This document shows, in pieces, positions 20,486 to 28,568 of a stretch of DNA of 64,000 nucleotides. The DNA is taken from contig NZ_JBGUAW010000003.1 of the NCBI RefSeq assembly GCF_041821045.1, forward strand, positions 310,001-374,000. Reading direction: 5' to 3'. The notes below the pieces were generated by a model that saw only the letters and a list, made by a program, of their open reading frames with translations, was not told where the DNA came from and ran no database searches. Positions within the stretch are counted from its first letter, which is position 1. Each line of letters begins with the position of its first letter. The translations under genes and the position numbers were made by a program. This DNA is from Thiohalorhabdus sp. Cl-TMA. GTDB lineage: Bacteria > Pseudomonadota > Gammaproteobacteria > Thiohalorhabdales > Thiohalorhabdaceae.

Positions 20486-22027
20486 TCAGAAGTCCACGGT
20501 GATCTCGGCGGAGGCGCGGAATTCCTTGGGAATGTCCTCGCCGTCCACGGTGGTGGTCTCCGGGGACATGGCCGCGCCCACGTCGGCGCGGACGGCCCAC
20601 AGGTTCAGACCCAGCCCCGCGGTGTAGACCGTGCCGATGTCGTCCTCGGCCATGTTCTTGTAGGCGCCGGCCCGCAGGGCGAGGAAGCGGAAGGCGTCCC
20701 ACTCGAAGCCGCCGGAAAGGAATTGGGTGTGGTAGTCCTGGAACACGGTCTCGTTGGCGGTGATGTCGTAGTCCACCTCCAGGGTTAGCGTGTTGTAGGG
20801 GATGAAGGCCACCCCCGCGCGCACCTGGGGCGACAGGGTGATGGAATCGTATTTCTGGCCGGTGTCCGAGTCCCGGAAGCCGTCGAAGGTGGGGCTGTTG
20901 AGGTTGCGGGCCATGAGGCCGAAATTGAACATGTCGTAGCGGCCCATGATGCCCAGGTCGGCGCCGACGTTGGTGCTCTCGTTGTACTTCTCGTCGGTCT
21001 TGGCGATGGTGTCGCCGGAATCGTCGTTGAAGACGATCACCTGGTTGCCGTACACCCGGCCCTGCATGAGCTTCAGGTTGCCGCCGACGGACCAGTGGTC
21101 ATTGAGGGCGTAGCCGTAGCTGAGCGGCACCTCGGCCAGGGCGAAGCCGCGCAGGGTGACCTCGGTGGCGTTTTGGTCGGTGCTTGAGGAAGACGAACCG
21201 GTATTGCCCAGGGTGGTATCCAGAAGGTCGACAGTCTCATCGGCCTGGCTTGAGCTTACCCCGGCGTCCTTGGCTGCATCGTCAAGGGCGAGGACCGCAG
21301 ACTGGGCATCGCCCGAGCTGACCCCCTGATTGATCAGAGTCTGTTCCAGGGTGCTTTGTTGGTCGGAGGTGAAAACGTCCAGGTTGCTGTCCCCAGATGT
21401 GTTGTTATTTATGCCATTAACAACGGTAGTCACGTCGGCGCTGAATCCCAGGTTCTGGGTGTCCAGCTCGGTGACGCGGGCATTGACCTGGCCGTATACG
21501 CGGACGCCCAGGCCGAAATGGCCGATCCGGGTGCTGAAGCCGCCGTTGGCGTCCGCCAGCAGGGCGTTGTTGGGGTCGTCCACGCCGGAGAGGCTGGAGG
21601 TCAGATTCAGCAGCTCCTCCGCTTCGCTCTTGCTGTCGATGCCGTCGGACAGGGAATCCAGGTCCACATCGGAGAGGGTATCCATGTGGTCGGCCATCCG
21701 GCCGTGGAAGCGGGCGCCGGCCCCGACGTCCAGGCCCAGCCCGAAGTCCTTGCGGCCCAGGTTGTTGTTGTCGTTCTCGCTCTGGTAGCCGCCCTCGGTC
21801 CGCTTGTTGAAGAAGCCGAAAGCGGCGGGGTTGTAGTACTGGGCGTCGGTGTCGTCCACGGCGGCGGTCAGGGCGCCGGCCATGCCCTGGCCGCGGGCGC
21901 CGACGAAGAAGGTGTCCAGCGCGCTGGCGGGAGTGGCCGCCAGGGCCAGGGTCGCGGCGCTGCCCAGAACGGTCAGGGCGCGCGCATGGGAAAGAGCGTG
22001 GCGTGGGGGGCGGCTCTTCTTGTCCAT
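20486..22027 (-). CDS. TraF-like outer-membrane beta-barrel protein, copy 1
   Basis: The 513-residue protein has a signal peptide ending PASALDTFFVGARGQGMAGA and the YYNPAAFGFF segment near residue 65, then many alternating beta-strand stretches ending in a C-terminal phenylalanine (ITVDF), as outer-membrane barrels do. The pattern matches the 'TraF-like' family (named after an F-plasmid operon protein), related to the FadL/OmpP1 group; there are no conjugation genes nearby. Residues about 215-290 form a Ser/Asp/Gln-rich, probably helical insertion. AAAGGGG lies upstream of the ATG at 22027. The next upstream gene is a paralog. Function is unknown; transport of hydrophobic substrates is possible. 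Confidence 0.8.
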   Translation of the reverse strand: MDKKSRPPRHALSHARALTVLGSAATLALAATPASALDTFFVGARGQGMAGALTAAVDDTDAQYYNPAAFGFFNKRTEGGYQSENDNNNLGRKDFGLGLDVGAGARFHGRMADHMDTLSDVDLDSLSDGIDSKSEAEELLNLTSSLSGVDDPNNALLADANGGFSTRIGHFGLGVRVYGQVNARVTELDTQNLGFSADVTTVVNGINNNTSGDSNLDVFTSDQQSTLEQTLINQGVSSGDAQSAVLALDDAAKDAGVSSSQADETVDLLDTTLGNTGSSSSSTDQNATEVTLRGFALAEVPLSYGYALNDHWSVGGNLKLMQGRVYGNQVIVFNDDSGDTIAKTDEKYNESTNVGADLGIMGRYDMFNFGLMARNLNSPTFDGFRDSDTGQKYDSITLSPQVRAGVAFIPYNTLTLEVDYDITANETVFQDYHTQFLSGGFEWDAFRFLALRAGAYKNMAEDDIGTVYTAGLGLNLWAVRADVGAAMSPETTTVDGEDIPKEFRASAEITVDF

Positions 22028-22190: not shown

Positions 22191-23738
22191 TCAGAAGTCG
22201 GCGCTTACCTTCAGACTGGCGCGCATCTCCTTGGGCAGGCGGTTGCCGTAAAAGGGGATGTCCAGATTTTTGACAGTGGTGGTCTCCGCGGACATGGCCA
22301 GGGAGAGGTCGGCGCGCACGGTCCACAGGTTGAGCCCCAGCCCCCCGGTGTAGACCGTGCCCATGTCCCGCTCGGCGAGGTTCCGGTAGGCGCCCGCCCG
22401 AACCGCCACGATCCGGAGGATGTCCCATTCCATGCCGCCCGCCAGCATCTGGGTGTCGTAGCCCCGTAGCACCGTGTCGTTGCGGGTCAGGTCGTAGTCC
22501 AGCTCGAAGGTCACCGTGTGGAAGGGGATGAGGGCGACCCCGGCGCGTACCTGGGGCTCCACTTCCACGTCGGAGATGGAATAGGAATCGCCGTTGGCGT
22601 CGGTGTAGGTGAAGCCGTCGAAGGTGGGGCTGTTGAGGTTGCGGGCCATGAGGCCGAAGTTGACCCGCGGATAGCGGGCCATGATGCCCACGTCCACGCC
22701 CACCCGGCTGGTCTCCTCGTAGCGCTCGTCGGTCTTGGCGAGGACGTCGCCGGCGTCGCTGTCGAAGACCAGCACATGGTTGCCGTAGACCCGGCCGCGC
22801 ATGAGCTTCAGGTTGGCGCCCACCGCCCAGCGGTCGTTGAAGGCGTGGCCGTAGGTGACGGGCACCTCGGTGAGCAGGAAGCCCTTGAGGGTGAGCAGCG
22901 TGCCGTTTTCGGAGACGGTGCTGGAGGTCCCGGAGCCGGAGGAGCCGGCCACGTCGTCGAGGACCTGGACCGCCGCATCGGCGTCCTCGGTGCTGAGCCC
23001 CTGCTCGTCGGCGAGGGTATCCAGGTCGACAATGGTCTGGTCGGCGAAGCCGGCGGCGGCGAGGCTATCCTTCTGATCGGCGCTCAGGACCGTAAGGTCG
23101 TCGATGGTCTTGGAGCCGTCGCTGGTGACGTTGTTCTGGATTTCCGTATCGAGCTGGTCGGTGCTTATGCCCAGATTGGCGGAATCGAGCTCGGTCACCT
23201 GCGCCGAGGCCTGGCCCAGCGCCCGTATGCCGATCCCGAAGTGCCGGAAGCGCACCGCGGCGCCGGCGTTGCTGTCCACCATCAGCCCGGTGCCCTTGTC
23301 GTCGATGCCGCCGAGGCTCTCCGTGAAGGCGAGCAGGTCCTCGGCCTCCGATGGGGAATCGATGCCGTTGGTGAGGGCGTCGAGATCCGTGGTCGAAAGG
23401 GTGTGCAGGTACTCGCCCATCTTCCCGGAGGCGCGCAGGCCGATGCCGGCGTCGGCGCCGTGCCCGTAGAGCTTGCGGGCCAGGTCGTTGTTGTCGAAGC
23501 GGATGCTGGCGTCGCGGTGGAAGAAGCCGAAAGCGGCGGGGTTGTAGTACTGGGCGTCGGTGTCGTCCACGGCGGCGGTCAGGGCTCCGGCCATGCCCTG
23601 GGCCCGGGGCCCGACGAAGAAGGTGTCCAGGGCGTGCGCCGGCGGAACGGTACAGGCGGCGACGATCCCGGCCAGGAAGGCCCGCCCGTATCGGATTCCC
23701 GGTGCCCGCCCGCGGTCTTTGCGCGGCGATGCAGGCAT
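22191..23738 (-). CDS. TraF-like outer-membrane beta-barrel protein, copy 2
   Basis: This 515-residue paralog of the downstream gene shares the ALDTFFVGPRAQGMAGALTA opening after its signal peptide, the YYNPAAFGFF segment, KLMRGRVYGNHVLVF, ARNLNSPTFDGF and a C-terminal VSADF. Its insertion (about residues 235-295) differs in sequence but is again rich in Asp, Ala and Gln and probably helical. The ATG at 23738 is preferred over the longer frame from 23852, because AAAGGGG precedes it and the longer version would cross a terminator. The 163-base gap to copy 1 has no obvious terminator, so the two are probably cotranscribed. A tandem duplication is the simplest origin. Confidence 0.8.
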   Translation of the reverse strand: MPASPRKDRGRAPGIRYGRAFLAGIVAACTVPPAHALDTFFVGPRAQGMAGALTAAVDDTDAQYYNPAAFGFFHRDASIRFDNNDLARKLYGHGADAGIGLRASGKMGEYLHTLSTTDLDALTNGIDSPSEAEDLLAFTESLGGIDDKGTGLMVDSNAGAAVRFRHFGIGIRALGQASAQVTELDSANLGISTDQLDTEIQNNVTSDGSKTIDDLTVLSADQKDSLAAAGFADQTIVDLDTLADEQGLSTEDADAAVQVLDDVAGSSGSGTSSTVSENGTLLTLKGFLLTEVPVTYGHAFNDRWAVGANLKLMRGRVYGNHVLVFDSDAGDVLAKTDERYEETSRVGVDVGIMARYPRVNFGLMARNLNSPTFDGFTYTDANGDSYSISDVEVEPQVRAGVALIPFHTVTFELDYDLTRNDTVLRGYDTQMLAGGMEWDILRIVAVRAGAYRNLAERDMGTVYTGGLGLNLWTVRADLSLAMSAETTTVKNLDIPFYGNRLPKEMRASLKVSADF

Positions 23739-23831
23739 GGCTTCCGATCCCCTTTGCTGGAAAGCCCGTTGTTCATCGGGGAAAACCCCGATCATACCGG
23801 GGAATATACCGAATTTTTCCGGGGATACCGA

Positions 23832-23864
23832 TAAAAAAATGGCCCCGGTCACCGGACCGGGGCC
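23832..23864 (-). terminator. Rho-independent terminator of the pyruvate dehydrogenase operon
   Basis: On the minus strand GGCCCCGGTCCGGTGACCGG GGCC is followed by ATTTTTTT. The ten-base-pair stem lies 43 bases after the stop of the E2-E3 fusion gene. Confidence 0.9.
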
Positions 23865-23907
23865 ACGGGCGGGCGGTTTCGGGGTCCGGTTCCGGACCCC
23901 GCCGCGC

Positions 23908-26577
23908 TCAGGCCTTGGCCTTCCTGGCGGCGCGCTTGAGGCGCGAAAGCAGGCGGCGGGCCAGGTCGCCGAACATCTCGGTCTGCGTCGGGTGGGGATG
24001 GATGGCCTCCGCCACCTGATCCACGGTCAGCCGGCCGGAAACCATCATCACCGCCTCGCCGATGAGGTTGTCGGCGTGGTCGGCAAGGATGTGGACGCCC
24101 AGGATCCGGTGGGTGGTCTTGTCCACCACCATCTTGATCAGGCCTTCCTCCTCGCCCTCGATCATGGCCATGGCGTCGATCTTCACCAGGGTCTTGGCGG
24201 CCACCGGATCGTAGCCGGCCTCCTTGGCCTGCTCCTCGGTGAGGCCGGCGAAGGCGGCCTCGGGGCGGGTGAAGATCACACCGCAGTCCAGCGCCTGATC
24301 GTAGCGGGCGCGCTCGCCCAGGAGGTTGGCGGCGGCCACGCGGCCCTGGGTGGCGGCGGTGTGGGCCAGCATGAGGCCCGGCACCACGTCGCCCACGGCG
24401 AAGATGTGCGGCACGCTGGTCCGGCAGCGGTCGTCCACCTTGATAAAGCCGGTCTCGGTGTCCACGCCGGCGGCGTCGAGGCCGAAGCCGTCGAAGTTCG
24501 GCCGCTTTCCGGTGGCCACCAGCACCCGGTCCACCTGCACGGTGCCCTGTTTGCCGTCGGCGTCGGTGTAGTGAACGGTCATGTCGCCCACCGCACCGTC
24601 GATCTTGTCCACCTTGGCGCCCAGATTCAGGGCCAGCCGGTCCTCGCCCTCCAGGATCTGGGTGAGGCTCTTGGCCACCTCGCCTTCCACCTCGGGGAGC
24701 ACCCGGTCGGCGATCTCGAAGGTGGTCACCTCGGCGCCGAAGTCGCGGAAGATCTGCGCCATCTCCAGGCCGATGGCACCGCAGCCGATTACGGCCAGGC
24801 GCTTGGGCGGCTCGGGCAGGTGCCAGATGGAGTTGGAGGTCTCCACCCCCTCGCTATCGGCGCCCGGGATGGGCGGCACGAAGGGCGGGGCGCCGGTGGC
24901 GACGATGGCCGCGCCGAAGGTGAGCTGCTGCTCGTTGCCGTCGGCGTCGGTGTAGGCCAGGCTGTGATCGCCGGTGAGGCGGGCGCGGCCCTGGCGGTAG
25001 TCGATCTTCAGGCCCTTGTCCGCCTTGTAGGCCATCTCGCCGCGGGATTGCATGACGCCCTTGCGGTGCGTCTCCAGGGCGTTCCAGTCCAGGGTCCCCT
25101 GGTCCGTACCCCGTACGCCGAGCTGGCTGTCGCCGGCGCGGTCACGCAGCCGGTTGGCGCTCGCCCGCCACGCCTTGGAGGGGATGCAGCCACGCCAAAG
25201 GCATTCGCCGCCGGGCAGCTCGTCGTCGTTGATCAGGGCCACGGAGTGGCCGTTCTCGGCCAGCTCGCGGGCGGCGTCCTCGCCGCCGGTGCCGCCGCCG
25301 ATCACTGCCACCTCCACGTCCCAGTCCCCTTCCGGGATGAGCGGGAAGCCGCCCTCCAGCCAGGAATCCGGGTTCTCGATCAGCGTCTTGAGGTCGCCCA
25401 GGTAGCGGGCGGCGTCGGCGCCGTTGATGACACGGTGGTCGCAGGACAGGGTCAGGCCCATGCCCTGCTCGGTGACCGCGCCCACGGCGAGGATGCCGCT
25501 GGCCCCCGGCACCGGGATGGCGTCGAAGTGCTCCACGCCGAACATGCCCAGGTTGGAGAGCATGAAGGTGGGGTGCTCGTATTCCGCGGGCGTCAGGCGC
25601 CGGCCGCGGGCGCGGCTCACCAGGTCCTTCCAGCCGCTAGCCAGGTCGGAGAGCTCGCGGTTGTTCACGTCGCGCAGCACGGGAACCACAAGGCCGCCCT
25701 TGTCCGCCTCCACGGCGATGCCCACGTCCACGTTGGAGCGCTCCACCACCTTGTCGCCGAACTGGTAGGCGTTGTTCATGGCCGGGTGCTTCTTGATGGC
25801 CTCGCCGCAGGCGCGCGCCAGCAGGATGGTGAAGCTGATGCCCATGGACTTGGCGGCCTGCTGCAGGCGCTCCGGGTGGGCGTGCATGCTTACCCGGAAC
25901 AGCGGCATGGTGAGCGCGTCCTGCATGTTGTGCGCCACCGCCCGCTCCAGGGAGGTCATGTCGCGCTCGTGGCCCGGGATGGAGCGGCGCGGCGCCACGG
26001 CGCCGCTGGCGGGCTCGCCGCCCGCGGCGGCACCGGCGGGCGCGGCAGCCTCCACATCCTTGGCGGTGATCTCGCCGTCGGGGCCGGTGCCTACCAGACG
26101 CTCCAGATCCACACTGAGCAGGCGCGCCAGGACGCGCGAATAGGGGGTGGCCTTCTTGCCCTTGGGGCGCGGCGCGGGCGCCTGGGGGCCGCCCGCTTGC
26201 TGGGGCGCCTCGGCCGCCGGCTGCTCGGTGGCGGGCTGTTGCGGCGCGGCCGGCTGCTCCTCCGGCGCGGGAGCGGCCTCCGGCTTGGCGGCCGGGGCCC
26301 CGCCCTCGGCCTCCTCGTGGACCACCTCGTCCTCGGATTCCACCAGGTAGCCGAGGGCGTCGCCCACGGGAACGGTGGCATCCACGGGGGCGATGGGGCC
26401 GGAGAGGTAGCCCTCGCGGAAGACCTCCACGTCCATGATGGCCTTGTCGGTCTCCACCTGGGCCACCACGTCGCCGCGCGCGACGTGCTCCCCGGGCTGT
26501 TTCTCCCATTCCACCAGTACGCCCTCGGTCATGGTGTCCGAGAGCTGCGGCATCTTGATGGTGTAGCTGCTCGCCAT
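23908..26577 (-). CDS. Fused dihydrolipoamide acetyltransferase (E2) - dihydrolipoyl dehydrogenase (E3)
   Basis: One uninterrupted 889-residue frame carries both remaining activities of the pyruvate dehydrogenase complex. Order: lipoyl domain (residues 1-80, lipoyl Lys45 in VETDKAIMD), an Ala/Pro/Glu linker, an E1/E3-binding domain (about 143-177), the acyltransferase core (about 205-405) with active His381 in CDHRVINGADAA, then directly an E3 flavoprotein. E3 shows FAD motif VIGGGTGGEDA (425-435), redox Cys459 and Cys464 in GGECLWRGCIPSK, a second dinucleotide motif AVIGCGAIGLEMA, and the catalytic HPHPTQTE (His862, Glu867). The usual Asp of HRxxDG is Asn385. No separate E3 gene follows. It starts two bases after the E1-beta gene, with a weak GGGA ribosome site. 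Confidence 0.93.
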   Translation of the reverse strand: MASSYTIKMPQLSDTMTEGVLVEWEKQPGEHVARGDVVAQVETDKAIMDVEVFREGYLSGPIAPVDATVPVGDALGYLVESEDEVVHEEAEGGAPAAKPEAAPAPEEQPAAPQQPATEQPAAEAPQQAGGPQAPAPRPKGKKATPYSRVLARLLSVDLERLVGTGPDGEITAKDVEAAAPAGAAAGGEPASGAVAPRRSIPGHERDMTSLERAVAHNMQDALTMPLFRVSMHAHPERLQQAAKSMGISFTILLARACGEAIKKHPAMNNAYQFGDKVVERSNVDVGIAVEADKGGLVVPVLRDVNNRELSDLASGWKDLVSRARGRRLTPAEYEHPTFMLSNLGMFGVEHFDAIPVPGASGILAVGAVTEQGMGLTLSCDHRVINGADAARYLGDLKTLIENPDSWLEGGFPLIPEGDWDVEVAVIGGGTGGEDAARELAENGHSVALINDDELPGGECLWRGCIPSKAWRASANRLRDRAGDSQLGVRGTDQGTLDWNALETHRKGVMQSRGEMAYKADKGLKIDYRQGRARLTGDHSLAYTDADGNEQQLTFGAAIVATGAPPFVPPIPGADSEGVETSNSIWHLPEPPKRLAVIGCGAIGLEMAQIFRDFGAEVTTFEIADRVLPEVEGEVAKSLTQILEGEDRLALNLGAKVDKIDGAVGDMTVHYTDADGKQGTVQVDRVLVATGKRPNFDGFGLDAAGVDTETGFIKVDDRCRTSVPHIFAVGDVVPGLMLAHTAATQGRVAAANLLGERARYDQALDCGVIFTRPEAAFAGLTEEQAKEAGYDPVAAKTLVKIDAMAMIEGEEEGLIKMVVDKTTHRILGVHILADHADNLIGEAVMMVSGRLTVDQVAEAIHPHPTQTEMFGDLARRLLSRLKRAARKAKA

Positions 26578-26579
26578 GT

Positions 26580-27557
26580 TCAGTGTCCCAGCAGTTTCTG
26601 CGTGGCGGTGACGATCTTGTCCGCGTCGGGCAGGGCGGCTTTCTCGAGCTCGTGGTTATACGGCATGGGCACGTCCTCGGCGGTGACGCGCACGGGCGGG
26701 GCGTCCAGCTCGAAGAAGCACTCCTCGTTGAGAACGGCCATGATCTCGGCGCTCATGCCCACCGGCGCCTCGTCCTCGGTGCAGATCACCGCCTTGTGGG
26801 TCTTGGCCAGGGAGGCCCGCAGGGTGGCGCCGTCGATGGGCTTGAGGCTGCGCAGGTCGATGACCTCGGCGGAGATGCCCTGCTCCGCCAGCTTGTCGGC
26901 GGCGGCCAGGTTCCAGTGGGTGCTCATGAGGTAGCCGACGAGGGTCACGTCGGTGCCCTCGCGCACCACCCGGGCACCCTCCAGCGGCGCAAAGTACTCC
27001 TCGTCGGGCACCTCGCCCTTGAGGTTGTAGATGGCCTCGTGCTCCAGGATCACCACCGGATCGTCGCAGCGCACCGCGGTCTTGAGCATGCCGTAAGCGT
27101 CCACCGGGAACGCCGGAGTCACCACGCGCAGCCCGGAGGTGCCGGCGAACAGCTTCTCCAGGCGGCCGGAGTGCTGGGCGCCGAGCTGGTGGGCCACGCC
27201 GCCGGGGCTGCGCACCACGAGCGGGCAGCCCACCTGGCCGCCCGACATGTAGCGGATTTTGGCGGCGGCGTTGATGATCTGGTCGGTGGCCAGCAGGGCG
27301 AAGTTCACCGACATGATCTCGACGATGGGTCGGCAGCCGATCATGGAGGCGCCCACCCCGATGCCGGTGTAGCTGTTCTCCGAGATCGGCGTGTCCATCA
27401 CCCGCTCTTCGCCGTACTTGTCGAAAAGCCCCTGCGTGGCCTTGTAGGTGCCCCCGGGCAGGCCGATGTCCTCGCCCATGGCGAATACCAGGGGGTCGTT
27501 GTCCATCTCCTCGTCATGGGCCCGGCGTACGGCGTCCCAGTAGAAAATCTCCGCCAT
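26580..27557 (-). CDS. pdhB: Pyruvate dehydrogenase E1 component, beta subunit
   Basis: The 325-residue beta subunit pairs with E1-alpha as an alpha2-beta2 thiamine diphosphate enzyme that decarboxylates pyruvate and acetylates the E2 lipoyl group. It shows GEDIGLPGGTYKATQGL near residue 29, RVMDTPISENSYTGIGVGA, and the AIYNLKGEVPDEEYF stretch in which plastid/cyanobacterial PDH beta subunits also align well. GGAGGG precedes the ATG at 27557, which is only three bases beyond the pdhA stop. Branched-chain or acetoin E1 subunits are the main alternatives, but the alpha subunit favours pyruvate. Confidence 0.93.
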   Translation of the reverse strand: MAEIFYWDAVRRAHDEEMDNDPLVFAMGEDIGLPGGTYKATQGLFDKYGEERVMDTPISENSYTGIGVGASMIGCRPIVEIMSVNFALLATDQIINAAAKIRYMSGGQVGCPLVVRSPGGVAHQLGAQHSGRLEKLFAGTSGLRVVTPAFPVDAYGMLKTAVRCDDPVVILEHEAIYNLKGEVPDEEYFAPLEGARVVREGTDVTLVGYLMSTHWNLAAADKLAEQGISAEVIDLRSLKPIDGATLRASLAKTHKAVICTEDEAPVGMSAEIMAVLNEECFFELDAPPVRVTAEDVPMPYNHELEKAALPDADKIVTATQKLLGH

Positions 27558-27560
27558 TGC

Positions 27561-28568
27561 TTACTTCCCTCCGCCCGCGATCTGGCCCATGGCGCAGCTG
27601 TCGTCGTCGCTGAGCACGTACTTGGTCAGGTCCTTCACATCCGGCTCGGGACTGTTCTCGGCGAACGGGATCACCTCGTCGTCCACGTGGTCCCGGGCCT
27701 CCTTGTCCATCCGGTCGAAGTCGTCGGCGGTGATCACGCCTTCTTCCACCAGCCGGTCCCGGAACAGGTAGATGGGATCCCGCTCCATCCACCGCTTGAT
27801 CTCCTCCTCCGACCGGTAGCCGCGCCCGGAATCGGACATGGAGTGGCCGCGCAGCCGATAGGTCATGAGCTCCAGGAAATAGGGGCCCTTGCCGGAGCGC
27901 ACGAAATCCACGGCCTTCGCGGCGGCGTCCATGACCGTGTCGATGTCCTGGCCGTCCACCTGGGCCGCCTCCATGGCGTAGGCCTCGGCCCGCTTGTACT
28001 GATCGTGCATGGGGGTGGAGCGTTCCAGGGAGGTGCCGATGGCGTAGAGGTTGTTCTCGCAGACGAACAGCACCGGAAGCTCCCAGAGCTGGGCCATGTT
28101 CAGGGTCTCGTGGAAGGTGCCCTGGTTGTTGGCACCGTCGCCCAGGAAGCAGATGGCGATCTGGTCGGAGCCCTTCATCTTAGCGCCCTTGGCCAGGCCG
28201 GCGGCCAGCGGGAAGGGCTCGCCCACCAGGGCGTAACCGCCCATGAAGTGGTTCTGCACATCGAAGATATGCATGGAGCCGCCGCGTCCCCGGGAGGAGC
28301 CGGTTTCCTTGCCGTACAGCTCCGCCATGACCTCCTTGGGGTCCGCGCCGCATTTGAGCGCATGAACGTGGTCCCGGTAGCCGGTGATCACATAGTCATG
28401 CCCCACGCGGGCCTTTTCCAAGACTCCGAAGGCGCAGGCTTCCTGACCCGGATACAGGTGCAGGAACCCGCCGATGTCCCGGTGGTGGTATGCCTCGGCA
28501 CAGCGTTCCTCGAAACGCCGCGCGAATACCATCTCCTGGAGCAACCGCTTGCGGTCTGCGGCTTCCAT
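27561..28568 (-). CDS. pdhA: Pyruvate dehydrogenase E1 component, alpha subunit
   Basis: The 335-residue alpha subunit holds the thiamine diphosphate motif GDGANNQGTFHETLN, the GGSMHIFD loop and the YRLRGHSMSD loop that is diagnostic of pyruvate (rather than branched-chain) E1-alpha. AAAGGA lies upstream of the ATG at 28568. The gene heads a tight three-gene operon, pdhA-pdhB-(E2-E3). In the 288-base upstream gap a TATAAC box (minus strand, 28583-28588) and TTGAAA (28615-28620) can be seen, but their spacing is not ideal, so no promoter is called. This operon would supply acetyl-CoA for the citric acid cycle and lipid synthesis. Confidence 0.95.
   Translation of the reverse strand: MEAADRKRLLQEMVFARRFEERCAEAYHHRDIGGFLHLYPGQEACAFGVLEKARVGHDYVITGYRDHVHALKCGADPKEVMAELYGKETGSSRGRGGSMHIFDVQNHFMGGYALVGEPFPLAAGLAKGAKMKGSDQIAICFLGDGANNQGTFHETLNMAQLWELPVLFVCENNLYAIGTSLERSTPMHDQYKRAEAYAMEAAQVDGQDIDTVMDAAAKAVDFVRSGKGPYFLELMTYRLRGHSMSDSGRGYRSEEEIKRWMERDPIYLFRDRLVEEGVITADDFDRMDKEARDHVDDEVIPFAENSPEPDVKDLTKYVLSDDDSCAMGQIAGGGK

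Follow-up and report, generated by a model that had tools for sequence, protein, structure and literature searches.

The locus studied here raises the question of whether two components of the pyruvate dehydrogenase (PDH) complex, E2 and E3, can be made as one continuous chain, and whether such a chain is a peculiarity of one genome. The E2 and E3 of PDH are normally separate proteins and, to our knowledge, the E3 of this textbook multienzyme machine has always been regarded as non-covalently held, shared and substoichiometric. A widespread natural E2-E3 chain breaks that rule and makes it readily testable whether exchange of E3, and its low ratio, are of importance.

ORF analysis of the window, i.e. 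the whole stretch of 64,000 nucleotides from Thiohalorhabdus sp. Cl-TMA that was analysed, displayed at 23908..26577 of the minus strand a single stop-free frame of 889 codons with an ATG start, encoding both E2 and E3 in 889 aa. From the N-terminus, the Pfam architecture comprises a lipoyl domain (Biotin_lipoyl PF00364, residues 6-76, 26350..26562) with its lipoyl lysine K45 in an ETDKA motif, a peripheral subunit-binding domain or PSBD (E3_binding PF02817, 36.3 bits against a cut-off of 23.7; residues 142-176, 26050..26154) and an E2 acetyltransferase core (2-oxoacid_dh PF00198, residues 205-407, 25357..25965) carrying H381 and N385 in DHRVING. A joint of 13 residues (408-420, 25318..25356) then leads into E3 dihydrolipoyl dehydrogenase (residues 421-889, 23911..25317; PF07992 and PF02852), with Pyr_redox_2 at 422-745 and Pyr_redox_dim at 766-871, a redox-active disulfide C459/C464 in GGECLWRGCIPSK (25186..25203) and a His-Glu dyad H862/E867 in HPTQTE (23977..23994), all of these features lying on the minus strand. 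The Pfam domains of both halves scored above their curated cut-offs. The motifs of a PDH E2 (DKA lysine, PSBD, core) are invariant in A1, as are H381, N385 and the preceding S341, in agreement with DHRxx(D/N)G, and so are the CxxxxC pair, the FAD/NAD Rossmann motifs and the HxxxxE of the dimerisation domain in E3. The original prediction, namely an unbroken 889-residue frame in which the C-terminus of E2 is attached to a complete E3 with its own active-site cysteines and His-Glu dyad, was thus confirmed.

Some departures from known E2s were also noted. The NCBI equivalog cut-off for PDH E2 was missed (TIGR01349, a model of the mitochondrial form, 244 bits versus 445), and two lipoyl domains are usual in relatives, two ETDKA motifs being found in 72 of the 93 counted loci and one in the other 21. 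Alignment to the solved E2p indicated that the E2 core is about 14 residues shorter before DHR than mammalian E2p; an adaptation to the fusion was considered and rejected, the unfused sister proteins L126 and L127 lacking these residues as well. Antisense to the whole fused gene runs an open frame of 1124 aa (23560-26934, plus strand) which, because the DNA is GC-rich, is most likely a shadow frame.

The genes for E1-beta (325 aa, 26580..27557, minus strand; NF006667 over cut-off) and E1-alpha (335 aa, 27561..28568, minus strand; TIGR03182 over cut-off) are located directly upstream of the fusion, with intergenic gaps of 2-3 nt, E1-beta ending 2 nt before the fused gene. The same two genes precede the fused gene in every relative locus on a long enough contig. 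The fused protein very probably supplies E2 and E3 as one subunit to a PDH complex of the alpha/beta type, with E1-alpha and E1-beta. Directly downstream of the operon, two tandem paralogous outer-membrane proteins are encoded on the minus strand (20486-22027 and 22191-23852), which, by sequence reading, are presumably FadL/OmpP1-like.

The alternative that survives best is that the frame is fused but free E3 is also made, by an internal start or by proteolysis, so that the complex would be classical in effect. A GTG codon (V421) preceded by a Shine-Dalgarno (SD)-like AAGGGG is found exactly at the expected start of a separate E3, in the window gene and in a congener, and could in principle yield some free E3 in this genus. 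Across 95 distinct joints, however, a start codon with an SD-like sequence was found in only two, both from this genus, and three sites were counted against 4.9 expected by chance; internal initiation as a family-wide source of free E3 was rejected, such sites being no commoner than chance. Moreover, valine codon usage at the joint equals the gene background, codons 373 to 509 contain no ATG, and the joint is strongly conserved at the protein level (0.82, versus 0.79 and 0.80 for the catalytic domains and 0.33 and 0.54 for the swinging arms). This alternative is consequently judged unlikely. In an AlphaFold monomer model (pTM 0.59) the joint has a pLDDT of 72-78 and the middle of each swinging arm falls under 50; the joint is thus predicted to be ordered, unlike the swinging-arm linkers. 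One subclade carries longer, Ala/Pro-rich joints, indicating that a rigid joint is not universal.

A second alternative is that the E3-like half is another disulfide reductase, with a different thiol partner, the true E3 being separate. The best model for this half, lipoamide dehydrogenase TIGR01350, was matched at 373-375 bits and its cut-off of 408.8 missed, as is also the case for the fused E3s of relatives; the redox motif GGECLWRGCIPSK is divergent, and the nearest free relatives, L128-L130, form a clade apart from classical Lpd. The assignment of the substrate, the half being under that cut-off, rests on motifs and context. Lipoamide dehydrogenase nevertheless remains the top model (373 bits versus 324 for MerA), the half is linked to E2 in every family member, and no better separate E3 was found among the other reductases of the genome. 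The nearest solved structures in the PDB, by sequence as well as by fold, are dihydrolipoyl dehydrogenases; no fused E2-E3 chain was present among the matches listed. The genome encodes four other full-length flavin disulfide reductases, all outside the window, so that the expectation of no separate E3 gene nearby holds. None of them reaches the lipoamide dehydrogenase cut-off, their best models being glutathione reductase, MerA and FAD-oxidoreductase, with one weakly Lpd. These other reductases could act as free E3. In the same genome, a MerA-type reductase (L005:1273-2883, plus strand) that attains the MerA cut-off has INVGAVPSK and lacks the second redox cysteine. A different reductase with its own partner is therefore very improbable, and dihydrolipoamide is the probable substrate of the E3 half, well supported by context.

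As for the reality of the fused frame, the stretch 25310-25370, where the original prediction called for a search for a stop or frameshift, is in frame in the window gene and in two congeners, G121 (93% identity) and G236 (76%), which excludes a sequencing frameshift at that place. E2 and E3 share one frame in all 110 related loci, from independent assemblies; 93 of the joints were detected by a simple motif, and 17 were missed by it because DHRI (once NGT) occurs there, most of these 17 having a longer joint and all of them being in one frame. Adjacent E2 and E3 genes do exist elsewhere, but read-through alignments there cross at least one stop codon and the joint here is conserved, so that a missed stop or frameshift between two neighbouring genes has practically no probability left and is already refuted by the relatives. 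On this comparison of sequences, chance and assembly error can be regarded as excluded.

The E2-E3 fusion had been treated as an isolated oddity; this view was not sustained, as the architecture is ancient and has become fixed across much of the class. When the fused architecture was searched across genomes, as had been suggested, the fused protein or unmistakable fragments, the latter mostly where a contig ends, were recovered in 56 of 274 genomes sampled evenly across the class, belonging to at least 35 families, with an identity of mostly 51-61%. Named carriers include Thiohalobacter, Thiohalophilus, Thiogranum, Thiohalomonas and Acidiferrobacteraceae. At a strict cut-off, a phylum sample of 200 genomes gave no additional fusion, adjacent E2 and E3 genes there being separated by stop codons. 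The plasmid records listed contained no pairs other than distant or separately annotated ones. The few fusion records labelled as other groups (labels as deposited) are metagenome bins in the same identity range.

With an E2-E3 subunit as the preferred reading, and since the catalytic motifs are intact, the chemistry of each domain can be proposed. E1 would decarboxylate pyruvate and acetylate the lipoyl lysine carried by the N-terminal arm, which would then move to the E2 core for acetyl transfer to CoA, and subsequently reach the covalently attached E3 for lipoyl reoxidation and NADH production; lipoylation and activity of the fused chain are presumed on the same basis. This order of chemistry, together with E1-alpha, E1-beta, a lipoyl-PSBD-core E2 and an FAD/NAD disulfide E3, is that of classical alpha/beta-type PDH, whose E3 is non-covalent and substoichiometric, whereas here it is covalent to E2 at a predicted 1:1. 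One E3 per E2 had been anticipated, and it follows from the covalent link within a single chain; the same ratio would be expected in the cell. In the E. coli complex, 24 E2 are found with 6 E3 dimers (PMC6270654). The retained PSBD would recruit mainly E1, and it is plausible that the fused complex keeps it mainly for that partner and no longer exchanges E3 freely; being intact and conserved, the PSBD could still bind an E3.

The catalytic form of E2 is a trimer and that of E3 a dimer, the active sites of each lying between subunits, so a closed symmetric assembly is expected when both are on one chain, and an assembly problem arises in which three-fold and two-fold symmetry have to be satisfied on a short conserved joint. 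The E2 trimers and E3 dimers may close as a D3 hexamer like that of OdhA, or as a 24-mer whose two-fold edges are spanned by E3 dimers. OdhA, the actinobacterial E2o-E1o fusion, is a D3 hexamer (PMC10415282), and its trimer-dimer closure is counted as a precedent for the fused E2-E3 assembly. Both systems join a trimeric acyltransferase at the C-terminus of E2 to a dimeric partner enzyme, but in OdhA/KGD the partner is E1o and not E3, OdhA is without its own lipoyl group, and the phylum is another one (PMC10415282). The window protein has E3 as its partner, with E1-alpha and E1-beta encoded by genes of their own, and the sequence around residues 403-407 shows no evident counterpart of the three-residue insertion at the C-terminus of actinobacterial E2p. 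The E2-E3 fusion mirrors the fusion of E2 with E1 in actinobacteria. It is tentatively suggested, as a possibility rather short of even, that these proteins constitute a separate structural class of PDH, built on an E2-trimer/E3-dimer scaffold (for example hexameric with D3 symmetry, or cage-like and carrying E3 along each edge), in which E3 would belong to the structure of the core and the chain would serve as general E3 of the cell, including for glycine cleavage.

Fusions of a lipoyl domain with E3 are known from the p64k protein of Neisseria. Another is the LpdA of halophilic archaea (PMC11237513). These resemble the window protein in that a single chain carries a lipoyl domain together with E3, but have no PSBD and no acyltransferase core; here the PSBD and a full 2-oxoacid_dh core lie between lipoyl domain and E3. 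No description of an E2-E3 fusion was found in the open-access literature, subscription papers being outside the scope of the search, and the architecture appears undescribed, though its sequences are public and automatically annotated.

The fused protein is the sole E2 of any kind in this 99%-complete genome, and E1-alpha/E1-beta at the fusion locus represent the sole PDH-type E1; family searches of the genome detected neither AceE nor 2-oxoglutarate dehydrogenase. Three genes for the RuBisCO large subunit and four GcvH-like proteins are present (GcvH-like and neighbouring names being given by sequence reading), one of the latter adjoining glycine-cleavage genes and two, L136 and L138 on contig C2, clustering with Hdr-like and radical-SAM lipoate-assembly-like proteins. 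Clusters of GcvH-like, heterodisulfide reductase-like and lipoate genes are a pattern of sulfur-oxidising bacteria. The single E2 and E1, the absence of AceE, the presence of RuBisCO genes and the GcvH-like/Hdr-like cluster together suggest that Thiohalorhabdus sp. Cl-TMA is a sulfur-oxidising autotroph without 2-oxoglutarate dehydrogenase. The fused E2 is alone in about half of the fused genomes, and most of the others add an E2 of 2-oxoglutarate type, which adjoins its own Lpd in the cases checked. The lipoamide dehydrogenase cut-off is exceeded by some protein in 10 of 32 fused genomes, never by the fused E3 itself.

Concerning the origin of the fusion, all fused E3s fall in one clade of the E3-half tree (SH-aLRT 100), beside the free reductases L128-L130, and in the E2-half tree the fused E2s group together beside the free E2s L126 and L127 of E1-alpha-E1-beta-E2 operons. 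The simplest reading of both trees is one ancestral fusion for the two halves. L126 and L127 (L126:867-2117, L127:2882-4111) are the nearest unfused E2s (42-43% identity), with the same gene order and the short loop before DHR, but they stop at the E2 core with no E3 behind, and they carry DHRVVYG/DHRVVFG versus DHRVxNG in the fused E2; a Tyr or Phe thus occupies the position of the Asp/Asn of catalytic E2s. Inside the fused E2 clade an E2-only copy in an unrelated gene context (L131:1587-2900, minus strand) ends in ...GRWLIRGIS* just past the E2 core and looks like a detached copy ending at the joint. Finally, the product of L151:1434-3575 (minus strand), 714 aa long, is E3-like in its C-terminal half and has about 240 additional residues at its N-terminus.
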